Shown: one piece after another, positions 24,243 through 36,718 of the stretch
How the letters are laid out: the number at the start of each line of letters is the position of its first letter
How positions within the stretch are numbered: position 1 is the stretch's first letter
IMG/VR virus record: IMGVR_UViG_3300034418_005345
Coordinates: 1 to 36,718 of that record
Strand: one strand, 5' to 3'
DNA from: a virus
Length of the DNA: 36,718 bases
Notes under the pieces: model-generated
Told to the model about the DNA's origin: nothing
Databases searched by the model: none
The model's input: the letters and a program-made list of their open reading frames with translations, nothing else
Translations under genes and position numbers: made by a program

Positions 24243-24369
24243 TCCTACCACCTAGAATGTTCGCACGCACGAAGGCAAACTTTTTTTTATTTTTTCCTTT
24301 ACAAGGCGAAATCTACACACATTGATAAACGGCGACCAACCGATTCATGTTGGAGAACAAAAGGACATT
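24243..24369. promoter_or_regulatory. divergent control region between late and replication blocks
   Basis: About 127 bases separate the leftward late block from the rightward replication block, so promoters for both should lie here. It contains an AT-only run (about 24281-24300) next to CACGCACGAAGG, and the element AATCTACACACATT at 24310-24323, identical to the one before the ribbon-helix-helix gene. AAAAGGAC just before 24370 is the ribosome site for the first replication gene. No canonical sigma-70 pair or known T7-class promoter was recognised. Confidence 0.65.
24310..24323 (+). promoter_or_regulatory. shared upstream element AATCTACACACATT, copy B
   Basis: Exact 14-base match to 2840-2853, here 46 bp before the ATG of the annealing protein and oriented toward the replication block. 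A looser relative (CTACACGCACATT) lies at 25298-25310, before the exonuclease gene. ATCTACACAC also occurs on the minus strand at 33493-33502, just before the RNA polymerase start but within a tiny ORF. Confidence 0.4.
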
Positions 24370-24942
24370 ATGAAAGAACTAGCAAAAGCCCTGTTGAAAG
24401 CCAGGGCAGAGATGGGGAAGCTCATCAATAACGCAAAGAATCCTCACTTCCGTAGCAACTACGCTACGTTGGATGAGGTGATCCGGGTAGCCCAGGAACC
24501 TCTGGCAAGCAATGACGTATGTGTCATCGAGCGTTGCGTAAGCGGAGAGTCTTCCACGATCCAGCAACTTACAATGATTCATTGTGAGTCTGGAGAAGAA
24601 GTCACCAGTTCAATGGAGCTGGTCTGCAAAGACCCAACGAATCCTCAGCAGTTGAAAAGCGCACAGACATACGCTCGCCGGATGCTTTGGACAACAGCCG
24701 CTGGACTTGCGCCAGAGGACGACGATGGCAATGCCGCCAGCAGTGGCAGTAGCAATACCGCCAAGGACGCAGCCGCACGGCTTAGGCAAGCACTCGGTAG
24801 CAATGTTGAATCAGTCGAGCGATACGCACGATCCAAAGGCATCCTCGGAGAAGGTGAGCCATTGGAGAAGCTGGACATTAAATGGATTCTCAAGGGGTTG
24901 AGTAACCCAGAACAACTAATCGAAAAAGCAAATGAGCAATAA
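24370..24942 (+). CDS. Erf-type single-strand annealing protein
   Basis: A 190-residue recombinase of the ERF family. The signature is clear: LAKALLKARAEMGKLINNAKN, then NPHFRSNYATLDEVIRVAQEP, LASNDVCVIE, and SAQTYARRMLWTTAAGLAPEDDDGN ending the core. Such proteins form rings that anneal complementary strands and can circularise or concatenate phage DNA (P22 Erf). The C-terminal 50 residues, after a Ser/Ala/Asn-rich linker, form a separate small domain. ATG 24370 follows AAAAGGACATT, while a TTG 48 bases upstream has no ribosome site. First gene of the replication block; its end overlaps the next start. Confidence 0.92.
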   Translation: MKELAKALLKARAEMGKLINNAKNPHFRSNYATLDEVIRVAQEPLASNDVCVIERCVSGESSTIQQLTMIHCESGEEVTSSMELVCKDPTNPQQLKSAQTYARRMLWTTAAGLAPEDDDGNAASSGSSNTAKDAAARLRQALGSNVESVERYARSKGILGEGEPLEKLDIKWILKGLSNPEQLIEKANEQ

Positions 24943-25261
24943 ACTAGAGTACGTAGGGAAAGTCGTCAATGTTGGCGACATTGAGTTGGTCGGAACAGAC
25001 CAGTTCCATAAGCAAACCTTCTGGGTTCTTGAAACTGGCGACTACGCCAAGCCCGTCGCCTTCGAGTTGATGGGGAAAGTCCTGGAAAAGATGAAGCCAC
25101 TCCACAAAGGAGATGTGGTTAAAGTCTCATTCAACATCAAGTCACGTGAGTACAATGGCAGAAGCTACACCAACTTGAATGCGTGGAATGTCAAGGTGAA
25201 GCCAAAGACATTTCAGCCCGACGAGTTCGGGATAGACGATTCCGAAGAGGTTCCATTCTAA
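24932..25261 (+). CDS. DUF3127-like OB-fold protein, candidate single-strand binding protein
   Basis: A 109-residue protein with the pattern QFHKQTFWVLETGDYAKPV, then GDVVKVSFNIKSREYNGRSY and TNLNAWNVK, which matches DUF3127. The strand pattern suggests an OB fold, and the acidic C-terminal tail (DEFGIDDSEEVPF) looks like the protein-interaction tail of SSB proteins. It overlaps the annealing protein gene by 11 bp. Acting together, they would coat and pair single-stranded DNA during recombination-dependent replication. Binding activity is inferred. Confidence 0.82.
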   Translation: MSNKLEYVGKVVNVGDIELVGTDQFHKQTFWVLETGDYAKPVAFELMGKVLEKMKPLHKGDVVKVSFNIKSREYNGRSYTNLNAWNVKVKPKTFQPDEFGIDDSEEVPF

Positions 25262-25324
25262 TAATTTCTTCCGTTAAACAAATGGGGGGTGCGCATCCTA
25301 CACGCACATTTTGAAAGGACACAC

Positions 25325-25963
25325 ATGAATATGATAATAGATATAGAGACTGGAGGCTGGTTAGACTGCCCATTCCAGTTCGACGAATCCTCGGTAGCTC
25401 TCGGAAACTTGAAAGACCCCGAGAAGATCGAAGCCAAACTTGCTGAGGCCAAAGGTAAGTGGGAAGAGAACATGGCATTAGCCGCTGAGACTGGAGAAGT
25501 CCTGGCGGTAGGAATCACGGAAGGATACAAGGACACCATCCTTGTTGGCCGAGAAAAGGACATCCTAATCGCAGCCTGGGGACATATCTCCCAACAACTT
25601 ACTGCCCAGAGGTACGTTGTCGGTCACAACCTTTGTGGCTTCGACCTGCCCTTTATGATAAGAAGGAGTTGGGTCAATGGCGTGAAGGTTCCATTGGAAG
25701 TAATGAGGCATACTGGCAGATACCCAACTTGGCATAGCTGCATTAAGGACACCATGCTCCTTTGGGCGATGGGTGATCGCACCTTTATCTCGCTGGACAA
25801 GCTATGCAAAGTCCTCGGGGTAGGAGCTAAGGCGGAAAATTTTTCCGGGTCTATGTTTGCAGAGTACTGGAGGAGCGGCGATCAGGCTAAGAAAGACCTG
25901 GCCATTGACTACCTCAAGCAAGACCTCCGCTTAACCCAAGCAGTTTCAGAAGTATTGATATGA
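25325..25963 (+). CDS. DEDD-type 3'-5' exonuclease
   Basis: A 212-residue DnaQ-like nuclease. Exo I is DIET (Asp6, Glu8), Exo II is GHNLCGFDLPF (Asp107), and Exo III is YLKQDLRLT with Tyr196 and Asp200 (YxxxD type). These acidic residues bind two metals. The domain stands alone, with no polymerase attached, so it may trim ends for annealing or proofread. ATG 25325 has GAAAGGAC before it; a GTG at 25289 was rejected. The palindrome at 25833-25847 lies in this gene. The end overlaps the next ATG as ATGA. Confidence 0.88.
   Translation: MNMIIDIETGGWLDCPFQFDESSVALGNLKDPEKIEAKLAEAKGKWEENMALAAETGEVLAVGITEGYKDTILVGREKDILIAAWGHISQQLTAQRYVVGHNLCGFDLPFMIRRSWVNGVKVPLEVMRHTGRYPTWHSCIKDTMLLWAMGDRTFISLDKLCKVLGVGAKAENFSGSMFAEYWRSGDQAKKDLAIDYLKQDLRLTQAVSEVLI
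25833..25847. repeat. dispersed palindrome, copy 3
   Basis: CGGAAA-ATT-TTTCCG within the exonuclease gene (coding for part of AENFSG). Same arms and spacer size as the copies at 393 and 14530. Confidence 0.7.
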
Positions 25964-26208
25964 ACCCAGACAACTTAGACAAAGCACGCAGTCTTCTTCT
26001 TGAAGAGATGAAGACATTGGACGAAAAGTCACTTGAGTACCGGATTCTAAAAGCAGCAGACCGAGCAATCGGAGCTGCAACCTGGAACCCGTATGAGTGT
26101 TTCAACATGATATGGGTAGCCTCCCATGACCTGGAGATAATCCGCAAGGAGATGGTTGCTAAAAAAATCGAAGACATGGAGAAGAACAATGAACTGGACG
26201 AGCGTTGA
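25960..26208 (+). CDS. small hypothetical protein of the replication block
   Basis: An 82-residue helical protein (KARSLLLEEMKTLDEKSLEY, then YECFNMIWVASHDLEIIRKE, ending in charged KKIEDMEKNNELDER). No family recognised. The ATG overlaps the exonuclease stop, and its 3' end overlaps the resolvase gene by 20 bp, so it is co-translated with both. Confidence 0.65.
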   Translation: MNPDNLDKARSLLLEEMKTLDEKSLEYRILKAADRAIGAATWNPYECFNMIWVASHDLEIIRKEMVAKKIEDMEKNNELDER

Positions 26209-26677
26209 TATAGGCGCAGGGAAGGCTGGCGTTGCCGAATGGTACGAGAACGATTTGATCCGTACCTATGTGGTCAAACCCTGTGGCAACAAAGGTGCGT
26301 ACTGGAAAGGCGACAACAAGTTCGACACCAAGTACAAAGTATGGAACGCGGTTTGCGTTTGCAGCGAACTGGTCATAATGGAGCGTGGTGCTGGTAACAG
26401 ACCGAACGTCATTAACGGACAGGCAAAACTCCGTGGATACCTGGAAGCAATTTGCGAGGCAACTATCGGAACTAAGCACCTGGAGGTCAACGTCTCGGAG
26501 TGGAGGCGGGTAATCAAGGAAGACCTGGGGATCTCTTGGCCTTGGGATAGCGCACGCCAGAAGGAGTTGGCGTTGAAGCTGGCTAAGGAGTTGTACCAAG
26601 TGGACGTAACCGAGGACGAAGCGGACGCAATTCTGTTGGGTCATGCCTCGATCCGTATGGGACTGAACAAGTTATGA
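26189..26677 (+). CDS. RuvC-like Holliday junction resolvase
   Basis: A 162-residue RNase H-fold protein. The first strand has VDIGAGKAG (Asp7), the second conserved acid lies in LVIMERGAGN (Glu65), and the C-terminal pair is in TEDEADAILLGHAS (about Asp143/Asp146). These fit the four acidic residues of RuvC-family resolvases. It would cleave branched DNA before packaging, a job done by endonuclease I (gp3) in T7. GGAGAAG before the ATG at 26189 sets the start; the longer form has none. Confidence 0.85.
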   Translation: MNWTSVDIGAGKAGVAEWYENDLIRTYVVKPCGNKGAYWKGDNKFDTKYKVWNAVCVCSELVIMERGAGNRPNVINGQAKLRGYLEAICEATIGTKHLEVNVSEWRRVIKEDLGISWPWDSARQKELALKLAKELYQVDVTEDEADAILLGHASIRMGLNKL

Positions 26678-26820
26678 AGCGTAAGAAAATCAGCTACTAT
26701 CTTCAGAAGAAGATGAACAACGGCAAGCCGCCGGAGGAGATCCTGCGGAACCTGAAACTGACAGTAGGCCAAGTCCGGGATGCTATGGAAAAATACAAAC
26801 CACTAATCTACAAACCATGA
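26674..26820 (+). CDS. 48-residue basic protein, possible small DNA-binding protein
   Basis: An ORF with ATGA overlaps on both sides, filling the gap between the resolvase and the next gene exactly. The product is Lys-rich (MKRKKISYYLQKKMNNGK), then PPEEILRNLKLTVGQVRDAM, a helix-turn-helix-like spacing. No family recognised. The perfect coupling to both neighbours is the main evidence that it is translated. Confidence 0.6.
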   Translation: MKRKKISYYLQKKMNNGKPPEEILRNLKLTVGQVRDAMEKYKPLIYKP

Positions 26821-27152
26821 ATACTACAAAAGAACTGAATGAAGGACTGAGGAAAATTGCAAGCTGGGCGCAACGCCGAGCAAAAGGCGACCATGATAAT
26901 ATTTCAACCCTTATGGGGCTGGAGAGGATGATGCGAGAACTGCGATATGCTATGAGGGATGACATTGTTACGCACACAAAATACTCCGTGATAGAAATCA
27001 ACGTGGAAACCGACAAGGACATGCCATCCGAAGATGTGGATGAATTCATTCAAGAATTCCTAGATGATTTAAAAATTAACACAACCCTATGGAGTCCAGA
27101 AGGAGCAATGCACCTAACGGCAAGTGTACCCCATGAAGAACCAACGCCATGA
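26817..27152 (+). CDS. hypothetical protein of the replication block
   Basis: A 111-residue protein. The N-terminus is helical and charged (KELNEGLRKIASWAQRRAKG, then GLERMMRELRYAMRDD). The second half is acidic with VIEINVETDKDMPSEDVDEF. No domain recognised. Coupled by ATGA overlap to genes on either side. Confidence 0.65.
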   Translation: MNTTKELNEGLRKIASWAQRRAKGDHDNISTLMGLERMMRELRYAMRDDIVTHTKYSVIEINVETDKDMPSEDVDEFIQEFLDDLKINTTLWSPEGAMHLTASVPHEEPTP

Positions 27153-27487
27153 ACGAACAACTTGAACTCACATTCGACATACGGCTACCGGAGCCAAGTA
27201 AGACCAGGTCAATCGGGGAATCCTTCGAGATGTTCCATGAACTGAATCCTGCGGTATACCGGAACCTAGTCCTTTTATGCCGTCAACTGGCTGGACGAGG
27301 ACGAAGGAAGATCGGGATGAAGATGGTCTTCGAGGTCTTGCGCTGGAACTATATGCTGGCAACGGAAGATCCGAACTCCGAGTACCGACTGAACAATAAC
27401 TACACAAGCAGGTATGCTAGGTTGATCGGCCAACAGGAGCCGGACTTAGCTGGCCTGTTTGAGACACGGGGATTAAAAACACAATAA
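27149..27487 (+). CDS. conserved small phage protein (RYARLI family, function unknown)
   Basis: A 112-residue protein with a pattern seen in many phage and prophage genes: FHELNPAVYRNLVLLCRQL, RKIGMKMVFEVLRWNYMLAT, and RLNNNYTSRYARLIGQQEPD, ending FETRGLK. The strong conservation implies a fixed structural role, perhaps DNA or protein binding in replication, but no activity is known to me. Starts by ATGA overlap with the gene before it. Confidence 0.75.
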   Translation: MNEQLELTFDIRLPEPSKTRSIGESFEMFHELNPAVYRNLVLLCRQLAGRGRRKIGMKMVFEVLRWNYMLATEDPNSEYRLNNNYTSRYARLIGQQEPDLAGLFETRGLKTQ

Positions 27488-27514
27488 CCTACACAGTAGC
27501 AGAATATTAAAACC

Positions 27515-27718
27515 ATGAATCTTAAGTTCACAGTAAGGAAAAGTACCACATTGTTTTTACCAGCGTTGATCATTCAACAGGATCTTTCCGGCTATAAAAA
27601 AATGTTCAAAGATATTGAAGGCACACATTTAGGAAAAACGATTTCAAGGATGCTTCGAGAGGATGATTTAGAAGAGTTTTTTAAACAGTATGACATTAAC
27701 CGCGGCTATAAGGATTGA
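27515..27718 (+). CDS. small hypothetical protein
   Basis: A 67-residue protein (MNLKFTVRKSTTLFLPALII, then GKTISRMLREDDLEEFFKQY). Its leader, GAATATTAAAACC, has no Shine-Dalgarno sequence. Unlike its neighbours it is AT-rich and not overlapped, which may mark a separate insertion. No function suggested. Confidence 0.55.
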   Translation: MNLKFTVRKSTTLFLPALIIQQDLSGYKKMFKDIEGTHLGKTISRMLREDDLEEFFKQYDINRGYKD

Positions 27719-27780
27719 CAAGCACGGGCGCATAGGCAGAGTAACAAGCAAATCGGGAAGTGATGTTCCCATTTAGACTT

Positions 27781-27882
27781 ATGAAACAATTTATCCATCC
27801 AAGGTTGAGAGCGAGGCTGCAAGTCTGGCCAAACATCACCGCACTCCCTTGGGTGGTCTATTTAGAAGGGATGCGAAAATGA
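27781..27882 (+). CDS. 33-residue ORF coupled to the initiator gene
   Basis: ATG 27781 to a TGA that overlaps the initiator ATG (ATGA). The product is basic with hydrophobic patches (RLRARLQVWPNITALPWVVY). No ribosome site is clear, so it may be a leader peptide that couples translation rather than a functional protein. Support is mostly the overlap. Confidence 0.35.
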   Translation: MKQFIHPRLRARLQVWPNITALPWVVYLEGMRK

Positions 27883-28709
27883 GCATCAACGAGAAGAAAT
27901 CCTTCCAACTTTACCATGACCTTGTTGGGATGGTCGGGGTAATGTCGGACGAACAAGCTGGCAAGTTGCTAAAGGCGATCTTGTCTTACGTGAACGCAGA
28001 GCCTTTAGAACTTGATGACCCTGTTGTACTGGTGGCATTCCAACCTGTGAAGCAGACGCTGGATCGGGATCATGAAGCATACAGGTTAAAATCAGAACAA
28101 AACCGAAAGAACGCCAGAAAGCGATGGCATGCGGACGCATCCAATGGCATGCAATCGCATGCGAATGGTATGCGAAAGGATGCGAATCATGCCGATACAG
28201 ATACAGATACAGGTAAGGATACAGATAAAAAAACTTTACCCCCATTATCCCCCAAGGGGGAACAAGCTAAACGGAAAACCCAACTCTCTGATGATTGGCA
28301 ACCTGACCTTGAGTACGCAAAGCAGTACGGCATGAACCCAGAGTTAGCTTTCGAGATCTTCTCCGATTGGGCAAAATCCAAGGGACATACCTACGCCGAC
28401 TGGAACCTTGCATGGAAGAAGGCTTGCCGTGAATGGCTACCAGACCAATGCACCAAGGCAGTAGCTAATCAAGTCAGGTCAGGACAACCTAGCCAGCAAT
28501 CCACCGGGGCGACCTGTCCCAAGGGCCGACCCTATCCTCCAGGATGTCACTACGACAAAGACCAACAGCTCCATCGTGGCCCTACCGGATGGGAGATAGA
28601 CGAAGAGCGCATCATGAAAATGTGGCAAGACCTCGGCAACGAGGAGAACGCAAAACTTTGGAAGCCGTTCGATTGGGCGGACTTCCAGGACATGGAGGCG
28701 GCGATATGA
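27879..28709 (+). CDS. replication initiator / helicase-loader type protein
   Basis: A 276-residue protein. Residues 1-90 (SFQLYHDLVGMVGVMSDEQA, ILSYVNAEPLELDDPVV, LDRDHEAYRLKSEQNRKNARKRW) match the DUF6291-type N-terminus of phage replication proteins. A low-complexity linker about 91-125 is His/Asn/Asp/Thr-rich. Residues about 140-195 (DDWQPDLEYAKQYGMNPELA to WNLAWKKACREWL) resemble the C-terminal domain of DnaT/O-like loaders. It sits directly before the DnaB-type helicase, as lambda O and P do before host DnaB. The start at 27879 has AAGGG ahead; the TTG upstream is unlikely. The linker-coding DNA contains phased iterons. Confidence 0.82.
   Translation: MSINEKKSFQLYHDLVGMVGVMSDEQAGKLLKAILSYVNAEPLELDDPVVLVAFQPVKQTLDRDHEAYRLKSEQNRKNARKRWHADASNGMQSHANGMRKDANHADTDTDTGKDTDKKTLPPLSPKGEQAKRKTQLSDDWQPDLEYAKQYGMNPELAFEIFSDWAKSKGHTYADWNLAWKKACREWLPDQCTKAVANQVRSGQPSQQSTGATCPKGRPYPPGCHYDKDQQLHRGPTGWEIDEERIMKMWQDLGNEENAKLWKPFDWADFQDMEAAI
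28126..28229. repeat. candidate replication origin: phased iterons and GATACA repeats
   Basis: GCATGCG-like 8-mers begin at 28126, 28136 (partly inverted, CGCATCCA), 28146, 28156, 28167, 28177 and 28187, a period of 10-11 bp. Directly after come three tandem GATACA units (28194-28211), a fourth at 28218-28223 and an A-run (GATAAAAAAAC), which could unwind easily. Lambda places its iterons inside the O initiator gene in just this way. The repeats also encode a low-complexity linker, so protein-level selection is an alternative. Confidence 0.6.
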
Positions 28710-30028
28710 TTATCCAAACCGACCAGCTTGAAGTACCCTCGGCAACCGAGCATGAGAAGCGGTTACTCTCCTGCCTGTTCCTCGACAGTCTCAACGAAGG
28801 ATTTCGTGGATGCTTGCGGAAGTCGGTCGCCCTCGGGGTCACCGAGGACACCTTCTTCAAACCATTGCACAAGCTGGTATGGCGTTCGATGTCCGCAATG
28901 AAAGACCAGCCGATCCCCCTCGACGAGCTTGCAATCATGGACTGGTGCAAGGCTAACAAGGAACCGGACATCCCCGAGTACAAGGAACTCAACGAGATCT
29001 TCAACAGTTGCGTCACCACCACCTGGTTTGAGCATTGGCTGGAGGTCTGCATGGACACCGAATCCAAACGTCAATTCCGTACCCTCGGAATGGAAGTTGC
29101 GCAAATGGCCTCAGAAGGGGCGAGCGCATCTGACATGGGTCTTGCTATGGAAAAGAAACCCAAGAGCCTTCTAGGGGCATCAGCGAACGCTATAAAGGCT
29201 GATCTGGCATCGGAAGCAACGAGTAACCTCATCGCCCTGAACAATTCCACCAATGACTTTATCGGAATCGCCACCGGAATTAGTGCATGGGACTACCTCC
29301 TCGGAGGCATACGTCCAGGGACTCTCAACATTATCGCAGCCCGTCCTTCCCGGGGTAAGACAACCATAGCCCTGCAAGTAGCACTCAATGTGGCCACCAT
29401 TAACAAGCGCATCCGGTTCTGGTCGCTTGAAATGTCACCACTACAACTCCTCAACAAACTCGCCCTCAACTTGTCAGGGGTAATGTACCAACGTGCGAAG
29501 GACGGGCTGCTATCCAACCAGGAACTACGGAACTACGAGAATGCAGCCAATGCCATCTCGAATATGCCGATCGACATCAGCAAAGATAGCAACGTGACTG
29601 TCGCACATATTGCAGGACAACTTCACCGAGACCTTGCACTCAACTCTGAGGAATCCAAGCCGGAGTTGGTCATCGTGGACTACCTCCAGCTAATAACCCC
29701 CGCCGACCGAAGAGTACCACGGGAACAGCAGATCGCACAGATGACCCGTGACCTCAAGATGATCACCAGGGACACGGGCGTGCCTATCATCCTCCTGGCT
29801 CAACTCAGCCGTGAATGTGAGAAGGACAAACGGGAACCGAGAATGTCCGACCTCCGTGAAGGTGGAAGTTCCGAGCAGGATGCCGACACCATCACGTTCC
29901 TCCACCACGATGAAGCCCTCGGTGAGTTTGGCCTCCGTCTTCTGGTTGCAAAAAATAGAGAAGACAAAACTGGCAAAGTTGAGGTAACTTTTAATCGTCC
30001 CCTTTCAAGGATCTATACAACCAAATGA
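28706..30028 (+). CDS. DnaB-type replicative helicase
   Basis: A 440-residue hexameric helicase. The N-terminal domain (1-140) has SATEHEKRLLSCLF. The RecA-like core has Walker A in ARPSRGKTT (211-219), Walker B in LVIVDYLQLI (321-330), the DnaB motif 4 QLSRECEKDKREPRMSDLRE with GGSSEQDADTI, and LVAKNREDKTGKVEVTF near the end. It unwinds the fork and would recruit host DnaG primase, since no primase is fused (unlike T7 gp4). Start at 28706 was chosen because it overlaps the initiator stop (ATGA) with GGAGG ahead. Confidence 0.95.
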   Translation: MIIQTDQLEVPSATEHEKRLLSCLFLDSLNEGFRGCLRKSVALGVTEDTFFKPLHKLVWRSMSAMKDQPIPLDELAIMDWCKANKEPDIPEYKELNEIFNSCVTTTWFEHWLEVCMDTESKRQFRTLGMEVAQMASEGASASDMGLAMEKKPKSLLGASANAIKADLASEATSNLIALNNSTNDFIGIATGISAWDYLLGGIRPGTLNIIAARPSRGKTTIALQVALNVATINKRIRFWSLEMSPLQLLNKLALNLSGVMYQRAKDGLLSNQELRNYENAANAISNMPIDISKDSNVTVAHIAGQLHRDLALNSEESKPELVIVDYLQLITPADRRVPREQQIAQMTRDLKMITRDTGVPIILLAQLSRECEKDKREPRMSDLREGGSSEQDADTITFLHHDEALGEFGLRLLVAKNREDKTGKVEVTFNRPLSRIYTTK

Positions 30029-30897: not shown

Positions 30898-31119
30898 ATG
30901 AAACACAAAAATCCACGCCTCAGTGAAGCCAGAATGCGCAGCAAATATATGCACCCACGTAACAAGGGTGATGACCGCAAGCGCATTGTAAATGTTGATA
31001 ACTTCGAGGACATAGACGAAGCCTTCCGCAACTTCTTCGCCCGTCGAGGCATGAACCCGCCCAGGGTTAGTAGTCATACCATCGAGGGTCTGGGAATTGA
31101 GAAGGAGCGGACGTACTAA
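30898..31119 (+). CDS. small basic hypothetical protein
   Basis: A 73-residue protein, very rich in Arg, Lys and Asn (MKHKNPRLSEARMRSKYMHP, then DDRKRIVNVDNFEDIDEAFR and FFARRGMNPP). No family recognised. It ends the replication block and overlaps the RNA polymerase stop by four bases in a tail-to-tail arrangement, which leaves no room for a terminator between the two converging blocks. Confidence 0.65.
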   Translation: MKHKNPRLSEARMRSKYMHPRNKGDDRKRIVNVDNFEDIDEAFRNFFARRGMNPPRVSSHTIEGLGIEKERTY

Positions 31120-33479
31120 CTGAACATGTACTTGGCGGTGAGGATATTCTTCATCGCCATCTCCCCTCGCTCAGGCTCCAGTCCTTCCAGCATATCGCAA
31201 GCGTACTGCTTCATCTCCTCGACCCAATCCGTCTCGGTGAAAACACTGTGGCACACCCGGCGGATGGTCTTGTTTACTCTGAGGTAATCAGCGGCGAGGG
31301 TAGCGTAGCAGTCATGGACTGTTGCAATCGCCCGCACTCCCTTCGGCAACTCGTTCACAACCTTGTGAAGCACCCCCGCATCCAGGCTGTGGACGAAATT
31401 AGCTGGAGAGGACGCGCCTTGCTTCATTATGTCGTAGTCCCCGGTGTCCTCGTGTATGGTCAGGCCGATCTTGTTGTTATTGTACAGGCACTCAATGCGC
31501 CTGGATGTCTTCTTGAATTTCTGTGTGGTCACAGGGAATCCACTCGGCGATTTCCATGCAAACCCCCTCTGTGCCTTGGCGTTCATTATCCCAATGTGCC
31601 TGATAAACTTCATCAACTTCTCCGGCTTCTCCGTGATCCTGATGACCTCGCTCATAACGATCCTCGCCATCAATACGCATGATTTGAAGGCCAGGTCGCC
31701 CAGGTAGGGAGGCATCCCGTCACCAGTCCGCTCATAGTAGTAGTTCGCCAGGTGACGCACCGCACTGTAAGCCCTGGAACCAAAGGGTCGGGTCATCACC
31801 AGTGGCTTGATCATGTCCCTGGTCATGCCGATCTTCTTCCAAGGCATAATCAGATAGTTTCTGCTGCCATTAACTGCGTTCTCTACCCGCTCCAGGATGT
31901 ACTGATAGAGATCGGTCGGCTCGTCCTTCCTGTGGATGTTCACAAATCTACCTACGTCCTCGTCCTTGCAAGCCATCGCCAGCATCTGGTAGCCATTACA
32001 TGACCCGTCCATCGACACGGGCAGAGTGGACCGGTAGCTATGGTTATCCTCCACCTTGTCGTACTCGAAACAGAATGCCAGGAATTGCCAGGGGTCTTTG
32101 GCATCCCTCCAGAATGTACTGTCCTTCGGGTTCATGGCAGCGGAAACAATGTCCTGGTCGTGGTCCTGCACCCACTGGATGCGCTCCTCATGCGTCCCTT
32201 TGATGCCGTACACGTTCGCCCCGTGTACATAAAGCCACTTCCAGCCGTGTCCTACCTTTTTACCCGTAGCAAAGTGTAGCAAACCCCGTTGCAGGTCGTT
32301 CCCCTGGTAGTTCAGAGCCTGGGGTATCATGTAAACTCTCCCCCGGAAGTCGCAGTTGTGCGGGTAGTAGAAGGTTTGATCCTTCAGCAGCTTGGCATGG
32401 CTTATTGTCCGCAGGTTCGCTACCATCTTGTGCCGGATCTCGGCATTCAACCTGTGGATGATCGCCCGATTGTCGATGATTTGTTTCCTAGCCGCGGTAC
32501 TAAGTTGCCCGAAGTCCTCAACCTCTGGTAAGTCGTAAGGCTTCATCCTCCCCAGGCATCCTATCTGCTGTCCCGTCTCTGCTGCCCATTGTGCTACCTC
32601 CAGAACCTCTTTATTTACCTGCCAGGGTACACGTTGCAGCCTATTGACCGCACTTACCGCCTCCCCCATATCGGCAAAGTCGTACTCCCTCCCGTGTAGG
32701 CGCATGTTCTTGACGAACGTGATCTTGGCCAGCCCATGTTTGTACCCGCCCTCGTCGTGGTGAGTCCAGGGGATCGGTTTCTCAACCATCGGCATGAGTA
32801 CCGGGCGGAGCAATTCAAATTGGCTGTTAAATTCCCTTATCCACTCCAAACATTTCGGCGTGGCCACGATGTACACGATGTCGTAGCTTTTTTTTGACTC
32901 CCGCTGCGCGTGTTCCTGGATAAAATGGGTGCTTCTCCTCACTACATCCAGCAACCAAGCCCCGATCCTCGCCCTGTCCTCGATCCTCCATTCTTTGTAA
33001 GGCTTGTCCTTAGTCCTGGCGTGCTGTTTGTAGATTTTGCGGGCTATCTCCCGGAATCCCTGCCGCCGAGACTTGGCGACCCATTTCCTGGCCTCCTTCC
33101 ATACATCTGGGTGCTGATTCTCCAGCCAGAGGCAGCGGTCCTCGTCCTGCAACGCCTCGCCGATCATGTTGATGGCCTTCGTGCGCTTGGTTTGTACGCT
33201 GATGATGTCCATCACCACCTGGATGCCTATAAAGGCCAGCTTTTCATCACTAATCCTGTGCAGCAGAGGCAACCACTTAGGCGTGTGATATATGAACTCG
33301 TTGTAATACTCCCGGGTGCGCTTCACCTCCTCCAGGATAGGCTCCAGCCCCAAAGCAGAAAGCCGCCTCCCGTAAGGTGAGCGGCTCTCCATGTTGCAAT
33401 TCCTAACTGTCTCCAGTTGGTGACGATACCGAGCCTGTCCGGATTGTACCATCAGTTCGTCTAACTTTTCCTGGTTCAT
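31116..33479 (-). CDS. single-subunit DNA-directed RNA polymerase (T7-type)
   Basis: A 787-residue polymerase (T7: 883). Motif A SMDGSCNGYQMLAM has the metal ligand Asp491. Motif B RDMIKPLVMTRPFGSRAY has Lys558 and Phe566, where T7 has Lys631 and Tyr639. Motif C TVHDCYATLAADY has Asp723. WKSPSGFPVTTQKFKKTSRR precedes the specificity loop, and the protein ends AKYMFS. It would transcribe the replication and late blocks from phage promoters. Start at 33479 (MNQEK) was chosen because a tiny ORF with a good ribosome site overlaps it by ATGA; a 40-residue extension would run through that ORF. Confidence 0.95.
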   Translation of the reverse strand: MNQEKLDELMVQSGQARYRHQLETVRNCNMESRSPYGRRLSALGLEPILEEVKRTREYYNEFIYHTPKWLPLLHRISDEKLAFIGIQVVMDIISVQTKRTKAINMIGEALQDEDRCLWLENQHPDVWKEARKWVAKSRRQGFREIARKIYKQHARTKDKPYKEWRIEDRARIGAWLLDVVRRSTHFIQEHAQRESKKSYDIVYIVATPKCLEWIREFNSQFELLRPVLMPMVEKPIPWTHHDEGGYKHGLAKITFVKNMRLHGREYDFADMGEAVSAVNRLQRVPWQVNKEVLEVAQWAAETGQQIGCLGRMKPYDLPEVEDFGQLSTAARKQIIDNRAIIHRLNAEIRHKMVANLRTISHAKLLKDQTFYYPHNCDFRGRVYMIPQALNYQGNDLQRGLLHFATGKKVGHGWKWLYVHGANVYGIKGTHEERIQWVQDHDQDIVSAAMNPKDSTFWRDAKDPWQFLAFCFEYDKVEDNHSYRSTLPVSMDGSCNGYQMLAMACKDEDVGRFVNIHRKDEPTDLYQYILERVENAVNGSRNYLIMPWKKIGMTRDMIKPLVMTRPFGSRAYSAVRHLANYYYERTGDGMPPYLGDLAFKSCVLMARIVMSEVIRITEKPEKLMKFIRHIGIMNAKAQRGFAWKSPSGFPVTTQKFKKTSRRIECLYNNNKIGLTIHEDTGDYDIMKQGASSPANFVHSLDAGVLHKVVNELPKGVRAIATVHDCYATLAADYLRVNKTIRRVCHSVFTETDWVEEMKQYACDMLEGLEPERGEMAMKNILTAKYMFS

Positions 33480-33544
33480 AGGTGCGTCCAGAGTGTGTAG
33501 ATATACACCGCAACCATGCCAATCATAATGAATGTGTAACGCAT
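33476..33544 (-). CDS. 22-residue membrane peptide / leader ORF before the RNA polymerase
   Basis: ATG at 33544 follows AACAAAGGACACA, one of the clearest ribosome sites in the early block. The product is almost wholly hydrophobic (RYTFIMIGMVAVYIYTLW) and its TGA overlaps the polymerase ATG. It may be a real small membrane protein or a leader peptide that sets polymerase translation by coupling. Confidence 0.5.
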   Translation of the reverse strand: MRYTFIMIGMVAVYIYTLWTHL

Positions 33545-33564
33545 TGTGTCCTTTGTTGTAAAAA

Positions 33565-33746
33565 TTATGCTGCTCGTTGGCTCTCCCCGGAGCAGCCACA
33601 GGTCAAGTAGGTTCCATAATAACCACGGCCATAGTCAAAGCCTGAAGAGGTACTATCCCCTGGGCAAGCTATTTTTTGCCGTATAGTAAATGCCAAGCCA
33701 CACGAAGAAGGCGGTCATGGCGGTGGATCCGTGAGATGTCCTTCAT
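33565..33746 (-). CDS. small gene in two frames, joined by a possible -1 shift
   Basis: Frame 1 (33746-33669) encodes 25 residues from an ATGA-coupled start: KDISRIHRHDRLLRVAW, then HLLYGKK and TAG. The sequence C-AAA-AAA-TAG would allow a -1 slip into the next frame. That frame reads on for 35 residues (IACPGDSTSSGFDYGRGYYG, then TYLTCGCSGE) to a stop at 33565, filling the gap before the next ORF exactly. The fused product would be 60 residues with three Cys in the second part. Either programmed slippage or a one-base error or mutation in the A6 run explains this. No family recognised. Confidence 0.4.
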
Positions 33747-36174: not shown

Positions 36175-36342
36175 TATTTTTGGTTTTCTACTGTTTATGG
36201 ATTTGACTGATTCACCGGTGAACTATTCCCGGCGAATATCCAATACAATCCCACAACATTTGGGGCGAGTCAACAAATATTCCAAAATATTTTTGCCACC
36301 ATACCATATAATAGACACGCGCGAGCCTTACCCTCTCGCAAC

Positions 36343-36459: not shown

Positions 36460-36547
36460 TTGCAAGGTTTCCTAGTGGACAGTTGACAAGCTGGACAGTG
36501 GACAGATTGCAAGTGGAACAAAGTTGCAAGGTTGATAAAATTGCAAG
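36460..36547. repeat. TTGCAAG and TGGACAG direct repeats
   Basis: TTGCAAG occurs at 36460-36466, 36507-36513, 36524-36530 and 36541-36547 (last three 17 bp apart), with a variant TTGACAAG at 36483-36490. TGGACAG occurs at 36476-36482, 36492-36498 and 36499-36505. The array ends 28 bp before the right terminal repeat. It could bind a phage or host protein involved in early transcription, replication or end processing. Confidence 0.7.
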
Positions 36548-36575
36548 CTGATCAAAAGGATATCCGCTACAACAC

Positions 36576-36718
36576 ACACGCGCTAACTTACCGCGCCTAA
36601 CTTAGATACCGCCCAGGTATGCAGGCGCCATAATCAACGCGCGCCTAACTTATACCCCGCCCCTTGCAATCGACCAGCATACAGACGACATCCCCCAAGG
36701 GGGGTAGATGTTGCGGCG
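36576..36718. repeat. right terminal direct repeat
   Basis: The second copy of the 143-bp terminal sequence, identical to 1-143 except G at 36624 for C at 49. In T7-type replication both ends come from one concatemer copy and should be identical, so the single difference points to population variation, a sequencing error or an assembly overlap. Confidence 0.85.

Follow-up and report, generated by a model that had tools for sequence, protein, structure and literature searches.

A candidate origin of replication lies inside the putative initiator gene of a 36,718-base virus sequence (the window, by which we mean the whole stretch of DNA that was analysed), and we put the probability of this reading at roughly 0.84. 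As we picture it, the DNA of the gene's linker region is the phage origin: the DUF6291 domain would bind the iterons, the hexamer tract would open, and DnaB would be recruited. We favor this reading because both elements are under selection at the DNA level, because their layout is family-wide, because the type of repeat unit is linked to the N-terminal domain, because initiator domains are interchanged, and because helicase or loader genes lie downstream. The relevant features are:

27879..28709, + strand: initiator gene (276 aa) encoding a DUF6291 domain, a repeat-encoding linker and a C-terminal helical domain (PF19808, E=5e-19)
27900..28127, + strand: DUF6291 domain, residues 8-83, proposed origin-binding domain (helices 7-20, 24-38 and 48-83 predicted, pLDDT 89)
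28119..28193, + strand: iteron array, 6-7 GCATGCG-like units, partly inverted repeats (p=0.0035 versus synonymous resampling)
28191..28199, + strand: junction GCCGATACA, of the form GC[CAT]GATA[GAC], recurrent among homologues
28194..28233, + strand: hexamer tract, proposed unwinding element, with GATACA at 28194, 28200, 28206 and 28218, then GATAAAAAAA (p=0.0047)
28254..28706, + strand: C-terminal domain, proposed helicase-recruiting part (helical model of low confidence, pLDDT 65)
28706..30028, + strand: DnaB-type replicative helicase (DnaB_C, E=5e-63), whose start codon overlaps the initiator's stop

The initiator gene belongs to a plus-strand replication block that encodes Erf, a DUF3127 single-strand-binding-like protein, an exonuclease, a resolvase-like protein, the DUF6291 protein and DnaB; the record also carries a single-subunit RNA polymerase gene and a terminase gene. 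The initiator product matches DUF6291 (PF19808) with an HMM score of 68.7 bits against a curated cut-off of 27.2, and the earlier note was right to place a DUF6291 gene directly before DnaB, given the overlapping stop and start codons. The DUF6291 domain is predicted to consist of three helices, the last of which is long and heads toward the basic linker. Comparison of this model with solved structures (PDB) revealed no matching fold, including no DNA-binding fold, while comparison with viral predicted structures returned chiefly DUF6291, DnaD-labelled and replisome-organiser models. The C-terminus shares 16-26% identity with the C-termini of other DUF6291 proteins and has no Pfam match. Its assignment as DnaT (PF17948) was not supported, there being neither a Pfam match nor a match in a profile comparison with 1 DnaT domain, the latter being a weak test. 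Searches of viral contigs using the whole initiator protein, DnaB or the RNA polymerase identified no direct relatives, a scan of genome contigs using the whole initiator protein identified none either, and a literature search found no experimental work on any DUF6291 protein. The T7-like single-subunit RNA polymerase (31116-33599) co-occurs with the DnaB/DUF6291/Erf block (24322-30028), and the record yielded no DNA polymerase of family A or B; provided that the record is complete, this is an unusual mix.

The array had been described as seven units every 10-11 bp. Units start at positions 28127 (GCATGCG), 28137 (GCATCCA), 28147 (GCATGCA), 28157 (GCATGCG), 28168 (GTATGCG), 28178 (GGATGCG) and 28187 (TCATGCC), with successive steps of 10, 10, 10, 11, 10 and 9 bp; the description therefore holds for positions and steps, save that the unit at 28137 is weak and one step is 9 bp. 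An inverted unit, CGCATC, is also present at 28136, and an inverted repeat with 20-nt arms (28136-28155 and 28165-28184, 75% complementary) lies within the array. The units occupy 2 codon phases of the gene. A search for an RNA element gave no Rfam match. The GATACA repeats and A-run said to follow the units were found as described, with the 7 A at 28227-28233, and the A+T content of the hexamer tract is 67-70% from 28200.

We measured repetitiveness against a synonymous-codon null, in which the peptide was held fixed, codons were redrawn from the usage of neighboring genes, and repeated 6-mers were counted in direct and inverted orientation. The repeat excess of 28119-28229 was matched in about 2 per 10,000 draws (p=2e-4), and both the iterons and the hexamers were significant when analysed separately. 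For the encoded peptide, synonymous codon choice thus falls far short of accounting for the repetitiveness of the linker DNA. The stretch 28119-28229 is the most repetitive 110-nt segment of coding DNA in the record and the second overall, the top rank belonging to an A/T-rich non-coding stretch at 36341.

Relatives of the DUF6291 gene were drawn from annotated phages, viral contigs and genome contigs, yielding 113 non-redundant genes; contig scans relied on profiles from sub-alignments, as the full alignment was too diverse. Using the same null, the linker DNA displayed a repeat excess (p<=0.05) in 98 of 111 homologues, compared to 11/112 for control windows in the N-domain and 9/109 in the C-domain, while 13 of the 111 linkers failed to reach this threshold. 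The iteron segment alone was significant in 88/105 homologues versus 2/105 controls, and inverted repeats alone in 27/105 iteron segments versus 1/105 controls. No clear array was evident in the DUF6291 genes L004, L307 and L315, and L309 lacked the hexamer tract.

The units form classes that differ by lineage, namely ATGCG/CGCAT (26 genes, the window included), TAGCAA (28), AACCC (22) and CTACCA/TGGTA (7), with the rest in smaller or unassigned groups, and their density in the linker is 35-110 times that in the rest of the gene. Spacing followed the helical turn in the TAGCAA class, where 47 of 54 successive units were 10 or 20 bp apart; steps of 10 bp were the most frequent among AACCC units, and the ATGCG class combined 10-bp steps with inverted pairs 7 bp apart. 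The iteron segment of the window spans 25 codons, compared to 18 in most close homologues. Units occurred in two or three codon phases (36/41/23 for AACCC, 21/3/19 for CGCAT and 45/35 for TAGCAA), so that a single DNA word is read as different peptides; AACCC, for example, encodes Asn-Pro, Lys/Glu-Pro or Thr-Gln depending on frame. Relatives change the peptide, and even the frame of the unit, yet keep the array and hexamer tract in place. Relatives that keep the peptide while losing the repeats had been named as evidence against an origin; the reverse was observed, which favors the note's reading. One homologue (L156:2995-3945) bears an insertion of ~100 residues in the linker, between the DUF6291 domain and the repeats, and one scanned DUF6291 protein, probably the same, matches T5orf172. 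In Aeromonas phage 4_L372X (L017:2507-2884) an N base immediately 5' of the GATAGT repeats interrupts the gene, so that the annotated frame departs from the Asp-Ser frame; the repeat may have been misread in sequencing.

Downstream of the array, nearly all homologues have a tract of hexamers, such as GATAGT, GATAAT, GTAAAT, AAGAAT or GATACA, usually after GC[CAT]GATA; among about 107 homologues the junction read GCCGATAGT in 30, GCCGATAAT in 15 and GCAGATAGT in 11. The top strand of the tract contains 3% C, compared to 16% elsewhere in DUF6291 genes. Codon choice was similarly skewed relative to the remainder of these genes, with AGT used for 96% of Ser (21% elsewhere), GAT for 99% of Asp (65%) and AAT for 98% of Asn (57%). 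A low-melting, strand-biased tract adjoining iterons looks as an unwinding element should, and we suggest that it may serve as one.

With the C-terminus held constant, similarity of the iteron segment tracked that of the DUF6291 domain (partial r 0.32); the converse correlation, with the C-domain, was far smaller (partial r 0.07), the permutation p being 0.002, the minimum, for both. Likewise, of 404 pairs with similar N-domains and unrelated C-domains, 273 had the same unit class, compared to 157 of 1584 pairs in which both domains differed. The unit type is thus tied more closely to the DUF6291 domain than to the C-terminus, although the array adjoins the N-domain and physical linkage alone could inflate the association. 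Domain substitution provides the stronger argument that DUF6291 reads the units. The iteron-binding part of lambda O is its N-terminal half. The C-terminal domain of lambda O is present in 7 DUF6291 proteins (L006, L009, L143, L146, L166, L170 and L178; 40-47% identity, E down to 3e-27), which span two iteron classes, AACCC and CTACCA, and further DUF6291 proteins carry the C-termini of r1t ORF11 or TP901-1 Rep. Phage_rep_O (PF04492), present in lambda O, was absent from the window protein and from the Pfam families listed for 60 DUF6291 proteins. Since some DUF6291 proteins share the lambda O and r1t C-termini, DUF6291 occupies the position of the origin-binding N-domain of lambda O, and the array lies between the two halves of the protein. 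Among 87 DUF6291 genes, the first long ORF downstream was DnaB-like in 39, IstB/DnaC-like in 8 and Toprim in 4, and relatives of lambda P are encoded at 3 DUF6291 loci.

Origins inside initiator genes have precedent. The lambda origin, with its iterons within gene O, is proven, and in Stx phages the O protein gains 13 aa from a pair of additional iterons (PMC7466680). For Tuc2009 Rep and TP901-1 ORF13, binding to repeats that lie within the respective gene and act as ori has been reported (PMC8965321). As positive controls for the synonymous-codon scan, we used the initiator genes of lambda and 3 lactococcal phages (Tuc2009, r1t and TP901-1). The scan peaked over the annotated iterons of lambda O and in mid-gene for r1t ORF11 and Tuc2009 rep, the latter annotated in its sequence record as 'contains origin of replication'. 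TP901-1 rep gave no signal, despite being reported to contain its origin, showing that the scan can miss a reported origin. The window resembles lambda O in having iterons between the N- and C-terminal domains of an initiator gene, beside an A+T-rich tract. It differs in that lambda has four 18-bp iterons, whereas the window has short units of 6-7 bp about 10 bp apart; that its next gene encodes DnaB, whereas that of lambda encodes P; and that the protein lacks Phage_rep_O and has a C-terminus that BLAST does not match to lambda O. Judged by sequence, the window protein falls outside the lambda O family, having a different N-terminal family and an unmatched C-terminus. The layout of the array is shared by r1t ORF11, in which GGAACC units ~11 bp apart are followed by C-free GATAAG-type DNA. 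The N-terminal domains of the lactococcal initiators differ, however, being HTH_36 in TP901-1 and not recognised by Pfam in r1t or Tuc2009. The analogy with an origin lying inside gene O, drawn in the earlier note, is strengthened by the proteins that join DUF6291 to a lambda O C-terminus and by the mid-gene signals of Tuc2009 and r1t. The intragenic-origin principle is known; what is new is a proposed DUF6291 origin-binding family with short, helically spaced units.

An independent search at the DNA level alone recovered 120 GATACA-repeat stretches in viral contigs, 117 of them in the Asp-Thr frame. Most of the encoded proteins resemble phage replication initiators, and a minority had Pfam matches, to DUF1376, DnaT, DUF6291, Phage_rep_org_N and Lin1244_N; a few are structural proteins or proteins of no recognised kind and are probably unrelated. 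DNA-level repeats were found upstream of the hexamers in 60/92 (p<=0.05), compared to 10/92 and 3/85 for controls. The DUF1376/DnaT and other initiators with a DTDTDT linker share with the window a DNA-level repeat array 5' of a GATACA tract, whereas their N-terminal domains are unrelated or unrecognised and their units differ (for example CAACG, GTAACG and GAAACG). Titles and abstracts of the DUF1376 literature gave no sign of origin work. The occurrence of GATACA tracts with upstream arrays in many other phage initiator families (L020-L139) suggests that intragenic origins are widespread.

These findings are consistent with a mechanism in which the DUF6291 domain binds GCATGCG-like iterons spaced one helical turn apart, perhaps cooperatively, and the resulting complex opens the adjoining A+T-rich hexamer tract. 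Either the C-terminal domain or the entire complex would then recruit the DnaB that the following gene encodes, after which the genome would be copied by host polymerase. The proposal of a candidate origin inside the initiator gene, with replication presumably starting here, is thus supported, on sequence grounds, by the synonymous null, the family-wide layout and domain exchange. An alternative role for the array is to bind the DUF6291 protein for autoregulation or incompatibility, with replication starting instead at non-coding repeats near the contig ends. Such repeats do exist (TTGCAAG repeats at 36461-36556, and others at 1-600 and 36341), and the 143-bp terminal repeat is similar to the ends from which T7-like phages are packaged. 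We nonetheless regard this alternative as unlikely: an operator would not be expected to have a C-poor, unwinding-type tract next to its units in nearly every homologue, this layout is a proven origin in lambda (PMC7466680) and a reported one in Tuc2009 (PMC8965321), DUF6291 co-occurs with the C-terminal domains of lambda O and r1t, and the TTGCAAG array lacks comparative support, no relatives of the genome having been found.

The two remaining alternatives deny the array a function as DNA. Repeats grown by microsatellite-like replication slippage might be neutral, or tolerated in a disordered linker, and the linker is indeed of low complexity and probably disordered, with a hexamer copy number that differs among relatives. 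Slippage does not, however, create the inverted units described above or place units in several frames at helical spacing, nor does it explain the use of AGT, GAT and AAT codons where the peptide is no simple repeat, or the recurrence of the layout in other initiator families; we consider it very improbable. Scarcely credible in our view is selection on the peptide alone, for a charged hydrophilic linker of which the DNA repeats are a consequence. The nearly invariant Asp-Thr frame of the GATACA set is as such selection would have it, but a null that holds the peptide constant was rejected in most homologues, and the DNA unit persists while peptide and frame vary. On the strength of the synonymous null, the frames and the inverted units we accordingly reject both slippage as the source of the array and a peptide-only linker.

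Returning to the origin reading, a broader proposal, which we hold to be somewhat favored, is that DUF6291 is an unrecognised origin-recognition domain, matching no solved fold, whose specificity co-evolves with iterons in the adjacent coding DNA, and that across several initiator families phages combine different origin-binding domains and matching intragenic iterons with shared hexamer tracts and helicase-recruiting C-termini. If so, initiator genes with unrelated N-terminal domains repeat the lambda arrangement of an internal origin, and the origins of many uncultivated phages could be recognised in their initiator genes. Testing for more repeats than synonymous codons would produce, which finds the lambda origin and the Tuc2009 and r1t arrays and misses TP901-1, would offer a simple origin predictor for phages available only from metagenomes. 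Origin recognition would likewise give a domain of unknown function a testable one, and raises a problem in co-evolution, that of which DUF6291 residues read which unit.

Cumulative GC skew had been put forward as a check, and it gave no support: neither overall nor at third codon positions was there a switch of the expected kind at 28.2 kb, although gene direction confounds the comparison and leaves the skew uninformative. Outside the initiator gene, the non-coding array near the contig end (36461-36556) consists of iteron-like TTGCAAG units together with AGTGGACAG repeats, and is possibly a second origin, a packaging region or a promoter region. The direct repeat at the termini (1-143 and 36576-36718) is identical at 142 of its 143 bases; it could be a genuine terminal redundancy or else an overlap left by assembly that contains a single error, and the record's class does not flag repeat ends. 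Finally, non-coding positions 172-206 contain a perfect tandem pair of the 18-nt unit CACCAAAACTAAACGGGT.
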